Source of the DNA: Kiritimatiellia bacterium
Lineage (GTDB): Bacteria > Verrucomicrobiota > Kiritimatiellia > PWTM01
Length of the DNA: 64,000 nt
Assembly: GCA_026417735.1 (NCBI GenBank)
Contig: JAOACR010000003.1
Coordinates: 186,001 to 250,000 of the forward strand
Direction of reading: 5' to 3'
Part shown: positions 47,256 through 56,108 of the stretch, one piece after another
How the letters are laid out: each line of letters begins with the position of its first letter
Position numbering within the stretch: the stretch's first letter is position 1
Notes under the pieces: generated by a model
What the model was told of the DNA's origin: nothing
What the model saw: only the letters and a program-made list of their open reading frames with translations
Database searches by the model: none
Made by a program: the position numbers and the translations under genes

Positions 47256-49040
47256 TCAGTCGAGTCCTTCCAAATCCGCCGGCCGTGCCGTCTCGAGCAC
47301 CGTCTGACCACGGTGAAATACCCGAACCCGGTAGCCGTGAAATGCCGAGCCGTCGCGCTCACGAGCACCACGGGGGACCAAGTAGGAAAACGAGAGTTGA
47401 CGCACTTCACCCGGCTGCCACGGTTCCCCCGTCAGATTGAACCGCCGGCTGCCCTGCGCCACACGGCTGCGAAACACCCGCGGCGGATCCCCGCGACGAT
47501 CAAAAAACGCGACGTCGACCTGCAACTGATCCAGCGGCAGCGGCTCGCGTACACCGTCCAACTGGAGCTGAAGATTGAGCACCCTCACCTCGTCGCGCTC
47601 GGTATCGGGCGGGAAGCGTGTCAACTCCGCCTTCCGCACTGTGAACCTCGGCCGGGCATCCGCTGTCGTCGCCGGCGTTCGCAATGCCGTCCGGACGGGC
47701 TCCGCCGGAGTGGGGCCGGACAGCGTTCCCCCCACCACCGTCGCCACCGCCGCGGTCTGCCCGCCAGGCGGCCTGCCCACTGCCCCACCTGCGCCGACAA
47801 GATTACCTGTCGCCGGAGTGTCTCTCGCCGTCACCTCGCCGGGCCCGCGGACCGGCACGGGCGCGGCAGGCGGCGCTGGCGGTTCGGCGGGAGGCTGCGG
47901 TCGCGGGGCCCTGAGTGCCGCCAACACGGACGGCGGCAAGTCCGGCGCAGTCGGCGCCGTCGGCGCCGCACCGGTGACCGATGCGGCACGCTCGAGCAAC
48001 GGCGGGGGCGCCAGCGACACCTGGCGCTCCGCCAACCGCACAAGCTCCTGAAATGCCGTCTCGTAGAAGGGTGAATCGCTGCCGAGCCGAAGCACGTCGG
48101 TCCATAGCGCCTCCGCATCTCGAAAGCGGCCGGCCTGCTCCGCCGCGCGCGCCCGGATCATCAGCACGCGCGGAAATGCTGGATCCTCGCGCGGTACGCC
48201 CTCCACTGCGCGAGCCGCGCGCTCCCATGCACCCGCCTCCGCCAGCGCCTCCGCCGCTTTTACCTGAAGCTCGTAGGGCGAGCGCCTCGCCGCCTCCGGC
48301 ACAGCCGGCCGCCCTCCATCCGAAACGACCAGAGCTGCCGGCGAAGACGTCTCGGTCGGTCCCGCAAGCCGGACGGTGTCAACCGTCGCGGAACGGGTGG
48401 TCACCCCCGTGCTGGAGAGGGGTAACGCCGCCAACGCCGGCTCTGCTGGCGGCGCTGGCGTGGGCCGCGGCAGCTCGACCGGCTCGGCCTCTCGGCCCGC
48501 AGTCTCGGCCGCAGCCACCGGGGAAGACGTCGCTGCGGTCGACAGCTCGCTGATCAACAGCCCGCCCGGCGGCGGTGTCTGTGGCGTCACCACGCGCGCC
48601 GCTTCACTCAGCGCCGCAGCCTCTGCGCCCGGCGGCACCGTCGCGGCCGTCGACCACCATCGCCACACGGCCCATCCGCCTCCCCCCAGAGCCAGCGCCA
48701 ACGGTACCACCCACCGCAGCGCCGGCGCGCATCTCTCCATCCACGGCAACCTCGAACGATAGCGGATTCGTACACCCGCGATTTCGATCGTATCACCGTC
48801 AGACAACAAGCGGTCCGTTGTTACGATCTCGCCATTCAGCTTCAAAAGGTCGGACGGCGCTCGAGCCAGGCGTCGCAACATGACCGCGCCGGCCCGCTCC
48901 ACGATTTCCGCGTGTCGGGGCGCAACACCCGGCGCATCCACCCAGAAGTGACATGTCAAATCCGACCCGATCACCAGCGAGCGGCGGTGAATCTTTCTCC
49001 GCCCTCGGGCGGGACCATTGAGAATGTCGAGCCAGTACAT
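47256..49040 (-). CDS. FHA-domain membrane protein with Pro/Ala-rich extracytoplasmic part
   Basis: This 594-residue protein starts with an FHA domain (about 10-95; RRSLVIGSDLTCHFWV, APRHAEIVERAG, LKLNGEIV, LSDGDTIEIAG), which binds phosphothreonine peptides. One membrane helix (WVVPLALALGGGGWAVW) comes next, then a long Pro/Ala/Thr-rich region with a helical, TPR-like part (about 270-350). A C-terminal strand-rich domain resembles a jelly roll (YLVPRGARERDGSAFHGY). No kinase is nearby. It is divergent from the DUF3857 gene. Start at 49040 (MYWLDILNG); the frame is open to 49088. Confidence 0.8.
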   Translation of the reverse strand: MYWLDILNGPARGRRKIHRRSLVIGSDLTCHFWVDAPGVAPRHAEIVERAGAVMLRRLARAPSDLLKLNGEIVTTDRLLSDGDTIEIAGVRIRYRSRLPWMERCAPALRWVVPLALALGGGGWAVWRWWSTAATVPPGAEAAALSEAARVVTPQTPPPGGLLISELSTAATSSPVAAAETAGREAEPVELPRPTPAPPAEPALAALPLSSTGVTTRSATVDTVRLAGPTETSSPAALVVSDGGRPAVPEAARRSPYELQVKAAEALAEAGAWERAARAVEGVPREDPAFPRVLMIRARAAEQAGRFRDAEALWTDVLRLGSDSPFYETAFQELVRLAERQVSLAPPPLLERAASVTGAAPTAPTAPDLPPSVLAALRAPRPQPPAEPPAPPAAPVPVRGPGEVTARDTPATGNLVGAGGAVGRPPGGQTAAVATVVGGTLSGPTPAEPVRTALRTPATTADARPRFTVRKAELTRFPPDTERDEVRVLNLQLQLDGVREPLPLDQLQVDVAFFDRRGDPPRVFRSRVAQGSRRFNLTGEPWQPGEVRQLSFSYLVPRGARERDGSAFHGYRVRVFHRGQTVLETARPADLEGLD

Positions 49041-49050
49041 TCCGCGCCCA

Positions 49051-49079
49051 AGGATAGCCAAATTCCCGCCCCTCCTGAA
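49051..49079 (-). promoter_or_regulatory. Promoter of the FHA gene
   Basis: Leftward TTCAGG (49079-49074), 17 bp, TATCCT (49056-49051). Ten nucleotides follow before the ATG at 49040, so the leader is very short. Confidence 0.5.
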
Positions 49080-49101
49080 CCCCGCCATCCTGCCGCCTCC
49101 C

Positions 49102-49130
49102 TTGGTGGGGCCCGACTCGCGTCGTATATT
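49102..49130 (+). promoter_or_regulatory. Promoter of the DUF3857 gene (leaderless type)
   Basis: TTGGTG (49102-49107), 17 bp, TATATT (49125-49130; 5 of 6), then 6 nt to the ATG at 49137. It fixes the start of this gene and rules out the longer frame from 48912. Confidence 0.55.
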
Positions 49131-49136
49131 TCTGTC

Positions 49137-52100
49137 ATGATCCGTTGCACACCCGCCAGCACCGCGCTCCTTCTCCTCCCGCTGTTCATCGCCCGAAATG
49201 TATCGGCATGGCTCGCGATCGACCCGACGGCCGCCCGCCGTCTCGCGGAACAGTGCGACCCGGCGTTCATCGCCAATGCGGATCTCGTCGTGCTGGATCA
49301 GTTCGAACGTGCCCGATACGGGCCCGACGGCACCTCCACGAGCTGGTACGAAAACTGCACACTCGTCCTAACTGAAAAGGGCCGCCGCGATCTCGCGGAA
49401 CTCTCGATCCGGTTCCTCTCCATGTACTCCACCATCGAGGTCGCCCGGGTCGAGCTCGTACGGCCGGACGGCCGGCACGAGCCGGTCGATATGTCGCGCA
49501 CCACCCGTGTTGCAATTCACGCCGATCAGATGGCGGAGAACATCTACGACCCCGACATCAAAGTGCTCGCCATCGGGGTGCCGGGCATCGAAACGGGCGA
49601 CGTTGTATGCGTCTCGCTTGTCGAGCGACGGCATCGAACGCGAATTCCCGGCCATTGGTTTGATCTTTGCATGCTCGAAGGCGAATCTCCCCTTCTGCGT
49701 GCGGTGTATGAGGTCGAGGCGCCGACCGAACGGCCGTTGCGCCACCTCGCGCTACGAGGCGGGCCGGCCGGCCATGTCCGCTATGAAGAAGAACCCTGGG
49801 CGGGCGGAACGCGGCACCGCTGGATCGCCACCAACGTGCCCCGGATGTTCCCGGAACCGCGCATGCCCGAGCCCGGTGGAGTCCTGCAGCGAGTGCTGGT
49901 GAGCACCTGCTCCGACTGGCCGGAAGTCTCCCGCTGGTACTGGAACCTGTGCCGCCCTCGCATGACGCCGGACGATACGCTTCGGCAACAGGTGAGGAAC
50001 CTCGTCGGAGACCGGCCCGACGAGCGCACCCGCGCCGATGTGCTGTTCACCTTCGTATCACAACACATTCGTTACCTCGGCATCACCGCGGAAACCGAAG
50101 CGCCCGGCTACGAACCCCACGACGTGACCCTCACGCTTAGACAGCGTCACGGCGTCTGTCGCGACAAAGCGGCACTGCTGGCCGCGATGGCCTCCGAGGC
50201 GGGTCTGCGTGGTTTTCCCGTGCTCATCCACGCCGGCATGTCACTCGATCCCGAGGTGCCTCTCCCCTATTTCAACCACGCAATCGCCGCGATTCGTTTT
50301 TCGGACGACACGACCGCGCTGCTCGACCCGACCGACGAGGCCAGCCGCGACTGGCTGCCGGCCTACTTGGCTCACCGCAGCTACCTGATCGCGACCCCCG
50401 TTGGAGAGCCCCTACGGATATCCCCGATCCCCCCCGCTGAATCCAACCTCGTCCGTCTCGTCACCGAAAGCCGTCTCGGTCCGGATGGGCGGCTGCTCGG
50501 TCGCTGCGCGGCAGTCTTCCTTGGCATCAATGACAATGCCTACCGCAACTACCTCGCGCGCCGCAGCACGACGGAGCGCCGTCGCTTCTTTGAAACGGTC
50601 GCCCAGTCCGCGCTGCCCGGTTGCCGAATCCGTGCACTCACCCTCGATCCCCCCGACCTGCGCGATCGAAGCCGTCCGCTGCGCGCCGAATGGGAGTTTG
50701 AGGCGCCGGCCCCCGCCGTGCTGACCGGGGAGATCGCGCTTCTCTCTCCGCCCTCCTTTGCACGCGCGTTCGGCGTGATCCACCGCGAACTGGATGCGCT
50801 CTCGCTTGAACATCGCCGCTACCCGCTCCGCCTTCGCTCGACGGGCGGCGTGGACGAGACTTGTCAGGTAGAAACAACCCGTCTTCCCATGCCTCCGCTC
50901 CATGTGCCCCCACCGCACCGAGTCGAGCTGCCGACGGTGCGATCGGCCGTCGATTGGGAGGTGGATGGCAACATCCTGCGGCGACATCACCGGTGGACGT
51001 TCCACGCGATCGAGATTGCGCCCGAAGCCTACCGACAATTTCGCGACGCCGTTCGTGCGCTGGTCAGTGAACAGAGGCGACGCGTGGTCTTTCGCGCATC
51101 TCCGGCTCCGTCCGCTTCGTCCGCCGCCCCGCCCGACCCTCCGCCCGCCGCGCCGGACCTCGACATCCAGCGTCACATCACTGACGTGGTTTGGATCGGC
51201 CCCGGCGCATGGATGGTCACCAACGAGGTCGAACAGGTACTTCTCACCTACGCTGGCGTCAAAAACGCCGCTGAGCTGAAACTGCCCTTCCTCGAACGCC
51301 ACGACGAGCCGCGGGTGCTGCTGGCGGAGGTGATCACCCCGGAGGGTACGACGAATGTTCCCGCTCCACGGGATCTGCAAATCATGGACCAGCCCTGGAC
51401 CGCGGGCGCACCACGCTACCCCGCCGGGCGTCTCCTTGTGGCGGGCCTCCCCGCTGTCGCGCCGGGGGCGCGGATTCGATACCGCACGCTGCTGACGGTG
51501 CGAAACCGCCCCTTTTTCGCGGAGGCGCCGGTGCTTGCCGGCCGTGACCCGGTTCGAGAGCGAATCGTTCGCCTGTATGCGCCGACCGGCATCGCACTCC
51601 GCGTCGTCGAACCGTCCGCGGCAAAACTTGCCCGGCGGGAGGACTACATCCGTAACGGTATGCAGGTGCAAGCCTGGCGCATACTCCAAATTCCCGCCAC
51701 CGCTCGCGAGCCCTCCGAACCCCCGCCATGGCTCGCTGGACGCTGCTGGATCTTCAGCGACGGCGACTGGGCCGGCTACGCGCGCCAGCTCCGGGAAAGG
51801 TTGGAGCAGGCAGCCTCGCAAAGCCGCGAGGTCACGGAACACGCCCGCGCAATCGCACCCACCACGCTACCGCTGAAGGACCGCCTGAGGCTCATCCGCG
51901 ACGCGGTCATTTTGAGGGTCCGCGCCGCGGGCCCGTCCCCCACCTCCCTGCCGTCCGACGCGCTCACTCCCGCGGACCGTGTCTGGGCGGACGGCTACGG
52001 CCACAGTGCCGATCGCGCCATCGTCCTCATGGCGATGCTCCGCGCGATTGAATTGTCTCCCGAATGGCTGCTCGCCACCCCTGTCCCAGGGAGCGCCGCC

Positions 52101-52949
52101 CCGCACGCTCCCTTCTGCGAGGCACCCTGGCTGTCTCCCTTCGACCGGGTGCTGCTCAGGGTTCCTCTCCCGGACGGCTCCGCCGTCTTGCTCAATGATA
52201 CCGACCAGTACGCCGTGATCGGCGCCTCTCCCTCTCGGGGCTCGCTCGCACTGGACCTTGTCGATGGGCGCATCATCACCCTTCCCGATCCACCCGAGCT
52301 GAGCGACCGTACCGAGATCGAGTTTCAGATCGCGCTCAACGCGGACGGGTCTGCGCGCGTCCTGCGGCGAACCCGCTTCTACGGCATGCACCACGCCGAT
52401 CATGTTCGCCAACTCTGCGAGCTGACGCCGGAAGAACTCCGACGCCGCGACCTCGCGGAACTCGCCGAGATCGCGCTCGACGCGGATCCCGATGGCCCGC
52501 CTCTTCACATTCTCAACGAACATCCAGCGGTCGAAGAGCTTCGCTTTCGCATCGCCTCCCTCGCTCAGCGCGCGGGTGTGTGGTGGCATCTTGAGCCGCC
52601 GCTGCCGCTGACGACCATCCCCGGTGTTCAGGGAGAACGGCGGACCCAGCCGCTGTACTGGGAGAAACCCTTTCGCGAAACTATTACCATTCCCATCCGC
52701 CCCCCGCCGGCATTCGCCGCTTTTCCGGACTTGCCGATCCCCATGGCATGGTCCGATCCGGGGTCGGGAACCATCCAAGTCTCAGTCGCGCGTGGCGCCG
52801 ACGGCACACTCAGCTACACTCTCCAAACAGCTCTCGCAGCCGGCCTTCACCCTCCTTCTGCGTTCGACAAGCTGCTAAACGTGTTGCAACGTCTGCGCCA
52901 TCCGGCATCGAGAACGTGGGCGGGTCGTGTCGCCGCGCCCACCCCATGA
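49137..52949 (+). CDS. Large exported DUF3857/transglutaminase-like protein with a degenerate second copy
   Basis: This 1270-residue protein has a signal peptide (about 1-22) and an N-terminal DUF3857 domain (about 25-260). A transglutaminase-like domain follows, with Cys in LRQRHGVCRDKAALLAAM (about 341), His in YFNHAIAAI and Asp in ALLDPTDE. The second half repeats the theme: a DUF3857-like region (about 670-900), then ADGYGHSADRAIVLMAMLRA. There the catalytic Cys position is replaced, but LLNDTDQYA still mirrors the Asp motif. The first half could be a thiol peptidase or crosslinking enzyme outside the cytoplasm. The second is probably structural. The role is unknown. Confidence 0.85.
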   Translation: MIRCTPASTALLLLPLFIARNVSAWLAIDPTAARRLAEQCDPAFIANADLVVLDQFERARYGPDGTSTSWYENCTLVLTEKGRRDLAELSIRFLSMYSTIEVARVELVRPDGRHEPVDMSRTTRVAIHADQMAENIYDPDIKVLAIGVPGIETGDVVCVSLVERRHRTRIPGHWFDLCMLEGESPLLRAVYEVEAPTERPLRHLALRGGPAGHVRYEEEPWAGGTRHRWIATNVPRMFPEPRMPEPGGVLQRVLVSTCSDWPEVSRWYWNLCRPRMTPDDTLRQQVRNLVGDRPDERTRADVLFTFVSQHIRYLGITAETEAPGYEPHDVTLTLRQRHGVCRDKAALLAAMASEAGLRGFPVLIHAGMSLDPEVPLPYFNHAIAAIRFSDDTTALLDPTDEASRDWLPAYLAHRSYLIATPVGEPLRISPIPPAESNLVRLVTESRLGPDGRLLGRCAAVFLGINDNAYRNYLARRSTTERRRFFETVAQSALPGCRIRALTLDPPDLRDRSRPLRAEWEFEAPAPAVLTGEIALLSPPSFARAFGVIHRELDALSLEHRRYPLRLRSTGGVDETCQVETTRLPMPPLHVPPPHRVELPTVRSAVDWEVDGNILRRHHRWTFHAIEIAPEAYRQFRDAVRALVSEQRRRVVFRASPAPSASSAAPPDPPPAAPDLDIQRHITDVVWIGPGAWMVTNEVEQVLLTYAGVKNAAELKLPFLERHDEPRVLLAEVITPEGTTNVPAPRDLQIMDQPWTAGAPRYPAGRLLVAGLPAVAPGARIRYRTLLTVRNRPFFAEAPVLAGRDPVRERIVRLYAPTGIALRVVEPSAAKLARREDYIRNGMQVQAWRILQIPATAREPSEPPPWLAGRCWIFSDGDWAGYARQLRERLEQAASQSREVTEHARAIAPTTLPLKDRLRLIRDAVILRVRAAGPSPTSLPSDALTPADRVWADGYGHSADRAIVLMAMLRAIELSPEWLLATPVPGSAAPHAPFCEAPWLSPFDRVLLRVPLPDGSAVLLNDTDQYAVIGASPSRGSLALDLVDGRIITLPDPPELSDRTEIEFQIALNADGSARVLRRTRFYGMHHADHVRQLCELTPEELRRRDLAELAEIALDADPDGPPLHILNEHPAVEELRFRIASLAQRAGVWWHLEPPLPLTTIPGVQGERRTQPLYWEKPFRETITIPIRPPPAFAAFPDLPIPMAWSDPGSGTIQVSVARGADGTLSYTLQTALAAGLHPPSAFDKLLNVLQRLRHPASRTWAGRVAAPTP

Positions 52950-53002: not shown

Positions 53003-53030
53003 TTGCTCTTGCGCCGTGGTGTCGTAGTAT
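53003..53030 (+). promoter_or_regulatory. Promoter of the receiver/ATPase operon
   Basis: TTGCTC (53003-53008), 16 bp, TAGTAT (53025-53030). The predicted leader is about 27 nt and includes the purine-rich AGGGCAGG. Confidence 0.5.
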
Positions 53031-53063
53031 GGTCCGTGCCAGTGGGGCGAAGGGCAGGTGCCG

Positions 53064-53468
53064 ATGCCGAAAATCTTGATTGTGGATGATGATCCGGGAG
53101 TTCTGGGCTTCCTCCAACGCGTCCTGAACTCCACAGGGTGTGAAATCGTTTCGGCATCAGCGGCGGACGCTGCGCTCAAAGCGATCGTGGATCCGGAAAT
53201 TCAATTGGTAATCTCCGACGTATACATGCCCGGCGAACCTCACGGTATTGAGTTCATCCGGCGTTTGATTACGCTGCGCCCCGACTGCCCCTTGGTCGCC
53301 ATCTCGGGCTATCCCAATCCGGCATTCGTCGAGGAATGCCGTCGGCTTGGCGTACGAGATTTTCTGACAAAACCGTTCGAAATGGGCTTTGTCCGCGAAG
53401 TGGTCCGCCGGTGGCTCAACAGCCCTGTACCCGGAAAAGGCGGAGGAGACGAGAGCGAACGTGCATAA
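53064..53468 (+). CDS. Single-domain response regulator (CheY-like)
   Basis: This 134-residue receiver protein has ILIVDDDPG (Asp8-10), the phospho-acceptor Asp52 in VISDVYMPG, Ser in LVAISGY and Lys in FLTKPFEMG. There is no output domain. A charged C-terminal tail (PGKGGGDESERA) follows the domain. Its 3' end overlaps the GTG of the KaiC-like ATPase by 8 bp, which suggests it controls that protein or the AAA ATPase after it. The ATG at 53064 is preferred to a GTG at 53058. Confidence 0.88.
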   Translation: MPKILIVDDDPGVLGFLQRVLNSTGCEIVSASAADAALKAIVDPEIQLVISDVYMPGEPHGIEFIRRLITLRPDCPLVAISGYPNPAFVEECRRLGVRDFLTKPFEMGFVREVVRRWLNSPVPGKGGGDESERA

Positions 53469-54336
53469 GGAGCTGACAGGCGTCGAATTCTTCGACACCG
53501 CCACCGGCGGAGTGTACGCTGGACGTTGCTGGCTGCTCTGCGGACCAACCGGCTCCGGAAAATCGGCGATTTCTTTGCAATTCCTCGCGCAGGGCATCCG
53601 ATCAGGACAGCGCGCCCTGCTGCTCTCCTCACGTCCCGCCGCCGACTCGGCGATCTGGGCGGCGGCCTACGGTTCTGACGTCGAGGCCGCGATCGAAAGC
53701 GGTGAACTCACCTTGCTGGAATACAGCCACTACGTGCCGGGACGGAACAGCGAGTCGAGCCTCATGCTGCCCAGCGAAGGGTTCTTGGAGCTTCAGGACA
53801 TCATTGAGACGCAGGCCGTCCGCCGGATGGCAATCGATACCATCGTCCCATGGGTTGCCGCCGCCCAACCGGAGCTGGTCGCCGAACACGTGTTTTCGTT
53901 CGTTCGTGCCTTCGAACGCCTTCGCTGCACCACGTTGCTCACCCTCCCCCGCCCCGTCTCCCCCGCCGCGTGCCGGATCAAAAACGCATTGGATGATGTT
54001 GTTCCGATCTCGGTCACGCTCTCACTGGACCCGCGCAGCGGCCAGCGGACGTGGACCACTTCCAAATACCTCGGTGCCAGCCGAGGGACTCCCCCGACTG
54101 CGTATGTGTTGGTGGCGGGTCGCGGAGCCGTCGAGGGAGTCGAACCGGAGCCTCCCCCCGCCGCTGAGGTCGCCGCTCCAGCCGCAACGGCTCCGGCCGA
54201 GGCCCCCGCCGCCCCCGCCATCTCGCCGTCTCCATCGCCGCGTGTGCGGTTCTCCCAAGTGGTGCTCGGCGAGCAAGGCAAACCTGAAACGGGGCCATCG
54301 CGCGGTTTTCGCTTCGGAATCACGTTGGGCAAATGA
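53461..54336 (+). CDS. KaiC/RecA-like ATPase with Pro/Ala tail
   Basis: This 291-residue protein begins with a KaiC-like domain: TGVEFFDTATGGVYAGRCWL then Walker A GPTGSGKSAISLQFL (about 28-42) and a Walker B-like strand RMAIDTIVPW. One domain is present, without KaiC's second copy, and no catalytic Glu pair is evident. From about residue 225 the chain is Pro/Ala/Glu-rich, and it ends in the basic segment GPSRGFRFGITLGK. KaiC-like proteins are ATP-driven switches in signalling. The GTG start has GGAGGA about 12-15 nt upstream. It is 10 bp before the ExeA-like gene. Confidence 0.72.
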   Translation: MHKELTGVEFFDTATGGVYAGRCWLLCGPTGSGKSAISLQFLAQGIRSGQRALLLSSRPAADSAIWAAAYGSDVEAAIESGELTLLEYSHYVPGRNSESSLMLPSEGFLELQDIIETQAVRRMAIDTIVPWVAAAQPELVAEHVFSFVRAFERLRCTTLLTLPRPVSPAACRIKNALDDVVPISVTLSLDPRSGQRTWTTSKYLGASRGTPPTAYVLVAGRGAVEGVEPEPPPAAEVAAPAATAPAEAPAAPAISPSPSPRVRFSQVVLGEQGKPETGPSRGFRFGITLGK

Positions 54337-54345
54337 GAGGGTGCA

Positions 54346-55209
54346 ATGTACCTGTCGCACTGGAATCTGCGCGAGGAGCCCTTTCAGAACGTTGCTGACC
54401 CGCGTTTTGCCTATCTCTCCGACCAACACCAGGAGGGTTTGGCTCGCCTGATCTATATCGTACAAGGCCGCAAACTTGGCGGCGTACTGGTCGGACCGTA
54501 CGGCGTCGGCAAGTCCATGATTCTGGAGCTTCTTGCCCGGCATGTCGAAAGCCAGGGCACCTCGAAAATGGTCCGACTGGACGTGCCGCCAGGCGGCGTC
54601 GACACACTGGCTCGCCAGATCGGCCGTGCGCTGATCCCATCAATGTCGTTTGCGGATGTGGCGGCCGTGCTCGATGCGGTGCGCGAGCTCGTCGTCGCCA
54701 CTCGGCCACCGTTCGTGCACACTGTGCTCGCGATCGACGAGGCACAGTTGATTCGGGATTCCGCTTCCCTGGATTTCCTTCATCTGCTGACCAATATCCG
54801 GCTGCCTTCCACCACGGGACGAACCGAGTCCGCCGCATTCACCATCATCCTTGCCGGTCACGATCAACTCGTCGCCAGCATCTTCCGCGAAGCAGCTCTC
54901 CGTCAGCGACTCTCCATGATCTGGCATCTCCAGCCCCTCAATGAACGTCAGGTGATCGAGTACGTGGAATTCCGGATGCGCGCGGCCGGGGGCGACATCT
55001 GGGTGTTTGATGAAGACGCCCTGCGGGAGGTCGCGCTGGCCTCCGGAGGAATCCCGCGCGTCATCAACAATCTCTGTGACGTTGCGTTGATGATGGGATA
55101 CGTGATGAAGGCGACGAAGATCACCCGGCAAATCGTGCACCAGGCCGTCGCCGAGGCCGGCATCGAGCGTTCCGTGACATCGGCGGTCGGCGCCGGAGAG
55201 CCCGCCTGA
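54346..55209 (+). CDS. ExeA/XrtA-associated type AAA ATPase
   Basis: This 287-residue AAA+ protein has the typical N terminus of GspA/ExeA and exosortase-associated ATPases: MYLSHWNLREEPFQNVADPRF. Walker A is VGPYGVGKS (about 49-57), Walker B VLAIDEAQLI (about 127-136), and sensor regions lie in LAGHDQL and GIPRVINNLCDVAL. It lacks the peptidoglycan-binding tail of ExeA. Relatives help place secretins or polysaccharide machinery in the envelope. The last base of its stop is the first of the next gene's ATG (TGATG). Confidence 0.85.
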   Translation: MYLSHWNLREEPFQNVADPRFAYLSDQHQEGLARLIYIVQGRKLGGVLVGPYGVGKSMILELLARHVESQGTSKMVRLDVPPGGVDTLARQIGRALIPSMSFADVAAVLDAVRELVVATRPPFVHTVLAIDEAQLIRDSASLDFLHLLTNIRLPSTTGRTESAAFTIILAGHDQLVASIFREAALRQRLSMIWHLQPLNERQVIEYVEFRMRAAGGDIWVFDEDALREVALASGGIPRVINNLCDVALMMGYVMKATKITRQIVHQAVAEAGIERSVTSAVGAGEPA

Positions 55210-55637
55210 TGAGCTGGGATCCGGCCGCTCTTACCATCACCGGTCTGATCGCGACGGTCCTGAGTCTCGTGTTCGCGGCAGCCGCCCACGCCACGACCAC
55301 GCGGCGCGCGAGAGAACGCGAAAACCTTCGACGCCTCCTCGACGCTCGTGAGCAGGGCAACGTTCAGTCGCCCCCGCCAGAAGCCTCACCCACCCCGAGC
55401 GCGGCGGTGGCCACCACCGCCCCCTCGCAACCGACTGGCTTTCGTCCCGGCCCCGCCGCCCCCGCGGCGGCCGCCCCTCCCGTGATCCCGGCGTCCACCG
55501 AGGCTCCGGCGCCTCGTCGGGCCCCGAATTCGCCAATCACCCAGTTCAAACGCTACGCCATCGCTCCCAGGTCCCTGCAGCCCCCGCCCCCCGGCAACGC
55601 TTCCGCTCAGAATCCCAACGAACTGATCTGGGAGTGA
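55209..55637 (+). CDS. Small membrane-anchored Pro/Ala-rich protein
   Basis: This 142-residue protein starts with one membrane helix (about 7-28; LTITGLIATVLSLVFAAAAH), then a short basic helix (TTRRARERENLRRLLDA). A long Pro/Ala linker ends in a more ordered C terminus, ITQFKRYAIAPRSL...NELIWE. I do not recognise it. Its position as last gene of the receiver-KaiC-ExeA group, overlapping the AAA gene, suggests a membrane anchor or docking factor for the ATPases. Confidence 0.65.
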   Translation: MSWDPAALTITGLIATVLSLVFAAAAHATTTRRARERENLRRLLDAREQGNVQSPPPEASPTPSAAVATTAPSQPTGFRPGPAAPAAAAPPVIPASTEAPAPRRAPNSPITQFKRYAIAPRSLQPPPPGNASAQNPNELIWE

Positions 55638-55736: not shown

Positions 55737-55767
55737 AAAAAGCGCGGGCGCCCACACGGGCGCCCGC
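55737..55767 (-). terminator. Intrinsic terminator of the RRM gene
   Basis: A perfect 10-bp stem (GCGGGCGCCC) with a 4-nt loop (55744-55767) is followed, leftward, by GC and five T residues (55741-55737). It lies 20 bp after the stop of the RRM gene. Confidence 0.85.
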
Positions 55768-55787
55768 ACCATCTTGATCGTCTTCCG

Positions 55788-56108
55788 TTAAAACCGGCGC
55801 CCGCGGCCGCGCTCAAACCGCCCACCGCCACCGCCGAAATCACCGCGCGGCCCGCGCTCTTCACGCGGACGCGCCTCGTTCACGGTCAGGGCACGCCCGC
55901 CCAGCCGATAGCCGTTGCAGTCGGCGATCGCACGTGACGCCTCGTCATCCGACGCCATCTGCACAAACGCGAACCCGCGCGATCGCCCGCTGAACTTGTC
56001 GAGCACGATCTCGCAGCTCACCACCTGCCCGGACTTCTCGAACAGGCTGCGCAGCTCGTCCTCCGTGGTGTCGAAGGACAGATTCCCCACGAACAGTCGT
56101 GTGGCCAT
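55788..56108 (-). CDS. RRM-type RNA-binding protein, Gly/Arg-rich tail
   Basis: The 106 residues hold one RNA recognition motif. RNP2 is LFVGNLSF (about 5-12) and RNP1 is RGFAFVQM (about 46-53). A tail rich in Gly and Arg follows (GDFGGGGGRFERGRGRRF). Similar small RRM proteins of cyanobacteria and other bacteria are RNA chaperones, some cold-induced. It has its own promoter, a long leader of about 146 nt and a strong terminator, so it is monocistronic. Confidence 0.93.
   Translation of the reverse strand: MATRLFVGNLSFDTTEDELRSLFEKSGQVVSCEIVLDKFSGRSRGFAFVQMASDDEASRAIADCNGYRLGGRALTVNEARPREERGPRGDFGGGGGRFERGRGRRF

Follow-up and report, generated by a model that had tools for sequence, protein, structure and literature searches.

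Four adjacent genes in a 64,000-nucleotide stretch of a Kiritimatiellia genome (contig JAOACR010000003.1; this whole stretch is referred to as the window) form a real conserved unit in one class of the PVC group, represented by Kiritimatiellota/Lentisphaerae MAGs. The association of this operon with a polymer secretion apparatus is well supported, and we consider it reasonably probable that the four genes constitute a regulatory or assembly module for synthase-dependent exopolysaccharide secretion that works in the phosphorylation-gated manner proposed below. The initial annotation had suggested an envelope system in which phosphorylation acts through two NTPases. Linkage and co-occurrence now identify the envelope structure as synthase-dependent exopolysaccharide secretion, while phosphorylation as the switch is still what we infer.

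All four genes lie on the plus strand. Gene 1 (53064..53468) encodes a stand-alone receiver of 134 aa, i.e., a response regulator without an output domain (Pfam Response_reg 2e-21). Gene 2 (53461..54336) has a GTG start and encodes a single-domain KaiC-like P-loop protein of 291 aa with a Pro-rich C-terminal tail (Pfam KaiC 6.1e-22). Gene 3 (54346..55209) encodes an ExeA-like AAA+ ATPase of 287 aa (Pfam AAA_22 9.5e-15; alignment of 19), and gene 4 (55209..55637) a single-pass membrane protein of 142 aa with a Pro-rich linker and a conserved C-terminal W-E motif, as judged by hydropathy and positional homologues. Genes 1 and 2 overlap by 8 bases and genes 3 and 4 by 1 base; a 9-base gap separates genes 2 and 3. 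The interval delimited in the initial annotation begins at position 53003, some 60 bases before gene 1 starts. By eye, the nearest upstream gene (48912-52949) is about 115 bases away and the nearest downstream gene (55788-56108) is convergent to the operon; this upstream spacing and the convergent neighbor limit the operon to the four genes. A promoter scan detected no sigma-70-like site on the plus strand upstream of gene 1. The small convergent gene appears, also by eye, to encode an RRM-type RNA-binding protein, and between it and gene 4 the minus strand has a strong hairpin, rich in GC and with T's after it (window 55741-55770).

The existence of a four-gene operon, originally claimed from the window alone, is borne out by these open reading frames, found at the positions given for them, and by the relatives, in which the gene set stays together (38 KaiC loci). 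The order receiver, KaiC, AAA+ is unchanged in distant families by neighborhood read-out, at 35-80% protein identity. The AAA+ gene adjoins KaiC in 34 of the 38 loci and the receiver does so in only 25; because of the latter count, loci without a neighboring receiver gene may manage without one or encode it elsewhere. A sample of 58 genomes of the class contained KaiC-like relatives at E<=0.001 in 22 genomes, 19 of which gave strong matches. When a profile was searched against 289 genomes of the phylum, 29 were positive, all but one within the same class. A genome-collection scan with a 7-row alignment found 12 loci, all in MAGs or single cells, labelled, where informative, as Lentisphaerae, Kiritimatiellaeota, or PVC group. 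Four genomes contain two KaiC copies (L030+L035, L032+L036, L108+L109, and L110+L111), and the duplicates mostly have their own AAA+ gene. The motif preceding the tail of gene 4 differs (QYxTWPGTK or similar) in L030, L109, L111, and L004, which may reflect another polymer system under control of its own.

Of the 38 KaiC loci, 28 have one or more polymer genes within 10 kb and 21 have two or more, several contig flanks being truncated. The linked genes encode a GT2 synthase, a large deacetylase-containing protein, a TPR-deacetylase-barrel exporter, MBOAT, DUF459/SGNH, and GHL10 hydrolase-like proteins. One locus (L070) carries the full set in one stretch, with DUF459, exporter, deacetylase, and GT2 followed by RR-KaiC-ExeA-gene 4-GHL10 (RR, receiver); in another (L071) the deacetylase gene lies upstream of RR-KaiC-ExeA on the same strand. 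Among the 58 genomes, with kinship addressed by within-family contrasts only, the KaiC gene (E<1e-30) and the exporter (E<1e-20) were both present in 19, KaiC only in 0, the exporter only in 1, and neither in 38 (Fisher 2e-14). The exporter-only exception, G012, is a genome with a completeness of 69%, and gene 3 finds a match in it at 1e-77. The same comparison of KaiC with GT2 (E<1e-150) gave 17/2/1/38 (p=1.5e-11). Six families are internally mixed (f1, f2, f6, f7, f17, and f18), and in each of them KaiC and exporter are present or missing together. In the window's genus the control operon is not adjacent to synthase or exporter genes; it is unlinked yet accompanied by the apparatus. In the window's genome the genes of the deacetylase and of the GT2, which shares 57% identity with the GT2 of L040, are on the operon's contig about 217 kb from the operon, and the exporter, MBOAT, and DUF459 genes are grouped on another contig.

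From sequence and predicted structure, the apparatus is assigned to synthase-dependent exopolysaccharide secretion, with a putatively processive GT2 and a TPR/16-strand barrel protein. The GT2 resembles hyaluronan and chitin synthases by sequence, its nearest solved structures are hyaluronan synthases, and it is predicted to be a processive membrane synthase. The C-terminal domain of the exporter is predicted as a 16-strand barrel (mean pLDDT 82.8), and a TPR scaffold is present in the same protein. The best PDB matches of the barrel were PgaA (4y25), BcsC (6tzk/9b8a), and PelBC (9h80), ahead of general porins. To judge by the families of the enzymes, an amino-sugar chain that is partly de-N-acetylated and O-acylated is the probable product. 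The PNAG (Pga) and Pel systems likewise have a processive GT2, a polysaccharide deacetylase, and an exporter with TPR and 16-strand barrel, PgaA being the best barrel match, but here the deacetylase is fused between TPR and barrel, and MBOAT and DUF459 SGNH proteins are added. We know of no KaiC/ExeA/receiver module that is part of Pga or Pel. The large deacetylase-like protein carries TFDH or TFEQ at the usual TFDD metal-binding motif (L061:5585-9910, L035:11656-15972, and L040:3-2186), and (S/T)FDD is intact in the deacetylases fused to the exporter; one or the other type of deacetylase may be inactive or serve as a sugar-binding guide. G000 also has, by itself at a separate site (contig C9, 234147-236204; L063:8381-10909), the gene of a further TPR-deacetylase protein, which lacks the barrel and shares 34% identity with the exporter protein.

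The motifs listed in the initial annotation (Asp52, GPTGSGKS, GPYGVGKS, AIDEAQ, and the NELIWE end) were all found. In the receiver, D52 and the KPFE block (K103-P104-F105-E106) are invariant in an alignment of 17 homologues; the codon of Asp52, the phospho-acceptor, is at 53217..53219 (plus strand). In one genome (G050) a hybrid histidine kinase of 1798 aa (dCache, HAMP, PAS, HisKA, REC, Hpt) is encoded downstream of RR-KaiC-ExeA (L075:4121-9517) and is a candidate phospho-donor for the receiver there. A small stand-alone GGDEF protein with an intact GGDEF motif is encoded at L062:12334-12852 (G000 contig C20) and also in L124, L125, and L126. Its gene is divergent from the exporter-MBOAT-DUF459 genes and is kept in four species of the window's genus, in which c-di-GMP may be an input to the polymer system. 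Across the 58 genomes the presence of GGDEF proteins does not track the operon (p=1). Two operon-bearing genomes (G027 and G051) gave no GGDEF match, and therefore c-di-GMP is not required everywhere.

Gene 2 is the sole KaiC-like match in the window's genome. Foldseek matched its AlphaFold2 model to the CI domain of KaiC (E 3e-15), and Lys34 of its Walker A motif GPTGSGKS (53542..53565, plus strand) is kept in 17 of 18 homologues. KaiC has two catalytic glutamates, at whose place gene 2 encodes Arg58-Pro59 (53632..53637, plus strand), and Glu occurs in neither column in 18 of 18 sequences. The protein probably binds ATP and has lost the catalytic glutamates, with ATP hydrolysis unproven. Its description as an ATPase thus stood as far as the ATP-binding loop is concerned and did not stand for the catalytic pair, while an active clock-like ATPase is not supported, the catalytic Glu being missing. 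Gene 2 shares the CI domain fold and Walker A and B with the KaiC clock protein and archaeal KaiC-like proteins, and differs from them in being single-domain, in lacking the Glu pair, and in having the Pro-rich tail. Membership in the KaiC clock proteins was rejected on the first two grounds: the clock protein has two tandem RecA-like domains in about 500 aa, whereas gene 2 has one in 291 aa. In the model pLDDT is < 50 from residue 241, and the tail past residue 240 is disordered. This tail contains an RVRFS motif (54241..54255, plus strand), and most homologues have an RxxFS-like motif after a variable linker, which may be a second docking peptide.

Gene 4 has no Pfam match. Its product consists of a single transmembrane helix (55230..55286, plus strand; residues 8-26, hydropathy 2.16), a basic stretch, a variable Pro-rich linker, and a conserved end, the NELIWE motif (55617..55634, plus strand). 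The initial annotation had pointed out this tail, which proved to be the best-conserved part of the C-terminus; the homologues usually end in a YVWE-like sequence. The gene 4 count of 27 in the 38-locus survey depends on the very motif by which the gene was recognized and is therefore biased. In a motif-blind test of 20 loci, open reading frames starting just past the AAA+ gene were listed by position: a membrane-helix ORF lay within about 100 bases of the AAA+ gene in 16 of the 20, and a W-[E/D/Q] end was present in all 16 of these position-selected homologues, which is the unbiased count. At two of the remaining loci (L040 and L041) gene 4 is relocated to the divergent strand with the motif kept.

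The set of proteins can be compared with BcsE, BcsF, BcsR, and BcsQ of E. coli cellulose secretion. There, the N-terminal domain of BcsE overlays on KaiC, is catalytically incompetent, and is followed by REC* and GGDEF* domains; it is recruited by the cytosolic C-terminal tail of the single-pass peptide BcsF, and the ATPase is provided by BcsRQ (PMC7439463; PMC11470070). In both systems a polymer synthase goes with a receiver domain, an ATPase, a KaiC/RecA-like NTPase domain that has degenerated, and a single-pass tail protein, and at the relatives' loci the operon is encoded together with polymer synthase genes. In P. putida, BcsE is divided over several ORFs. The differences are that the ATPase is AAA+ here and MinD-like there, that the receiver is apparently intact here and degenerate there, that Walker A is kept here, and that the module here has no GGDEF domain and serves another synthase and another polymer. 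No homology between the operon and BcsE (represented by one sequence) was detected by BLAST or hhalign, and the BcsE and BcsF Pfam families gave no match in the four proteins. Because sequence comparison gave nothing, we speak of a module that would work like BcsE, not of one that is a BcsE. We put forward, tentatively and as plausible rather than probable, that the operon evolved independently as an equivalent of the BcsEFQ vestibule, in which a membrane-tethered, phosphorylation-gated complex of a KaiC-derived non-hydrolysing platform and an ExeA-derived AAA+ protein would be recruited to an amino-sugar polymer synthase and activate it, with the receiver replacing or adding to c-di-GMP.

Since the operon offers the roles of BcsE, BcsF, and BcsRQ as separate proteins, we propose the following scheme of tether, platform, and gating. 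Through its one helix gene 4 would serve as the inner-membrane anchor of the module, and its YVWE-type tail would hold the cytosolic partners. The KaiC-like protein would be an oligomeric platform, and the AAA+ ATPase would provide remodelling or assembly work. The phosphorylated receiver would then switch the module so that the GT2 synthase becomes active or is coupled to the TPR/barrel exporter. Complex formation and contacts, the target, and the direction of control are what we infer by analogy.

The KaiC-like and ExeA-like proteins could instead form a transcriptional or quality-control module acting on polymer-gene expression or folding, not on the synthase complex. A receiver without an output domain would fit such a module, and dual roles do exist, as the BcsE N-terminal domain also binds transcription antitermination factors (PMC7439463). 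We nevertheless find this unlikely: a DNA-binding domain was found in none of the four proteins, and the conserved membrane anchor of gene 4 points to action at the membrane.

Gene 3 has invariant residues in both Walker A (GPYGVGKS, 54493..54516, plus strand; G50, G53, G55, and K56) and Walker B (AIDEAQ, 54730..54747, plus strand; D131 and E132). ExeA-like ATPases act in envelope assembly. This general role, together with the membrane anchor and long disordered linker of gene 4, is consistent with a motor in which the AAA+ and KaiC-like pair would place synthase and exporter at a cell pole or pull them together, the receiver being a tie to the cell cycle. Such a motor seems to us rather improbable. 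In the 287 aa of gene 3 Pfam found only AAA domains and no membrane or peptidoglycan-binding domain; without a periplasmic peptidoglycan-binding domain it cannot work as ExeA does. Gene 3 was also rejected as an ExeA/GspA of type II secretion, whose C-terminal membrane segment and peptidoglycan-binding domain it lacks.

The initial annotation had given gene 3 an XrtA/ExeA-type role. Gene 3 does share an N-terminal MYxxxWxLxExPF start and the AAA+ core with ExeA/GspA and with the XrtA/PEP-CTERM ATPase (TIGR03015), the latter is its best NCBIfam match (1.1e-33), and an exosortase is present in the window's genome. The operon might thus be part of an XrtA/PEP-CTERM (exosortase) protein-sorting/polysaccharide system with gene 3 as its ATPase, but this is very unlikely, and the role is not supported: the score of 116.8 bits is far below the cut-off of 324.5, the exosortase is on a different contig from the operon, exosortase does not track the operon (18/1/33/6, p=0.41), and no exosortase accompanies the operon in G050. 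A control comparison of exosortase with synthase/exporter sites in the same genomes gave one common contig (G000 C9), on which the genes are >100 kb apart. Finally, four unrelated adjacent genes or a defence system, which the small diverse domains (one of unknown family) might suggest, are scarcely credible against a gene order conserved over many families. PADLOC reported no anti-phage defence system, only a weak receiver match, and that assignment was rejected.

We therefore return to a control module for synthase-dependent exopolysaccharide secretion. Literature searches found nothing joining KaiC with ExeA, KaiC-like proteins with exopolysaccharide, KaiC with polysaccharide deacetylase, or Kiritimatiellota with exopolysaccharide; no description of the module was found in the literature searched, which included few subscription papers, and with it the apparatus would be a variant among synthase-dependent polymer secretion systems. 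The reason why a degenerate KaiC-like domain, a receiver-like domain, an ATPase, and a peptide with one helix are needed in E. coli cellulose secretion is only partly understood. If the proposal is true, an unrelated lineage has similar parts on another polymer machine, which would point to a general design in which an NTPase platform and a membrane-tail tether control processive synthases. The C-terminal YVWE would be a newly named short motif that is directly testable, and a function would be available for KaiC-like and ExeA-like PVC-group proteins whose role is unknown.
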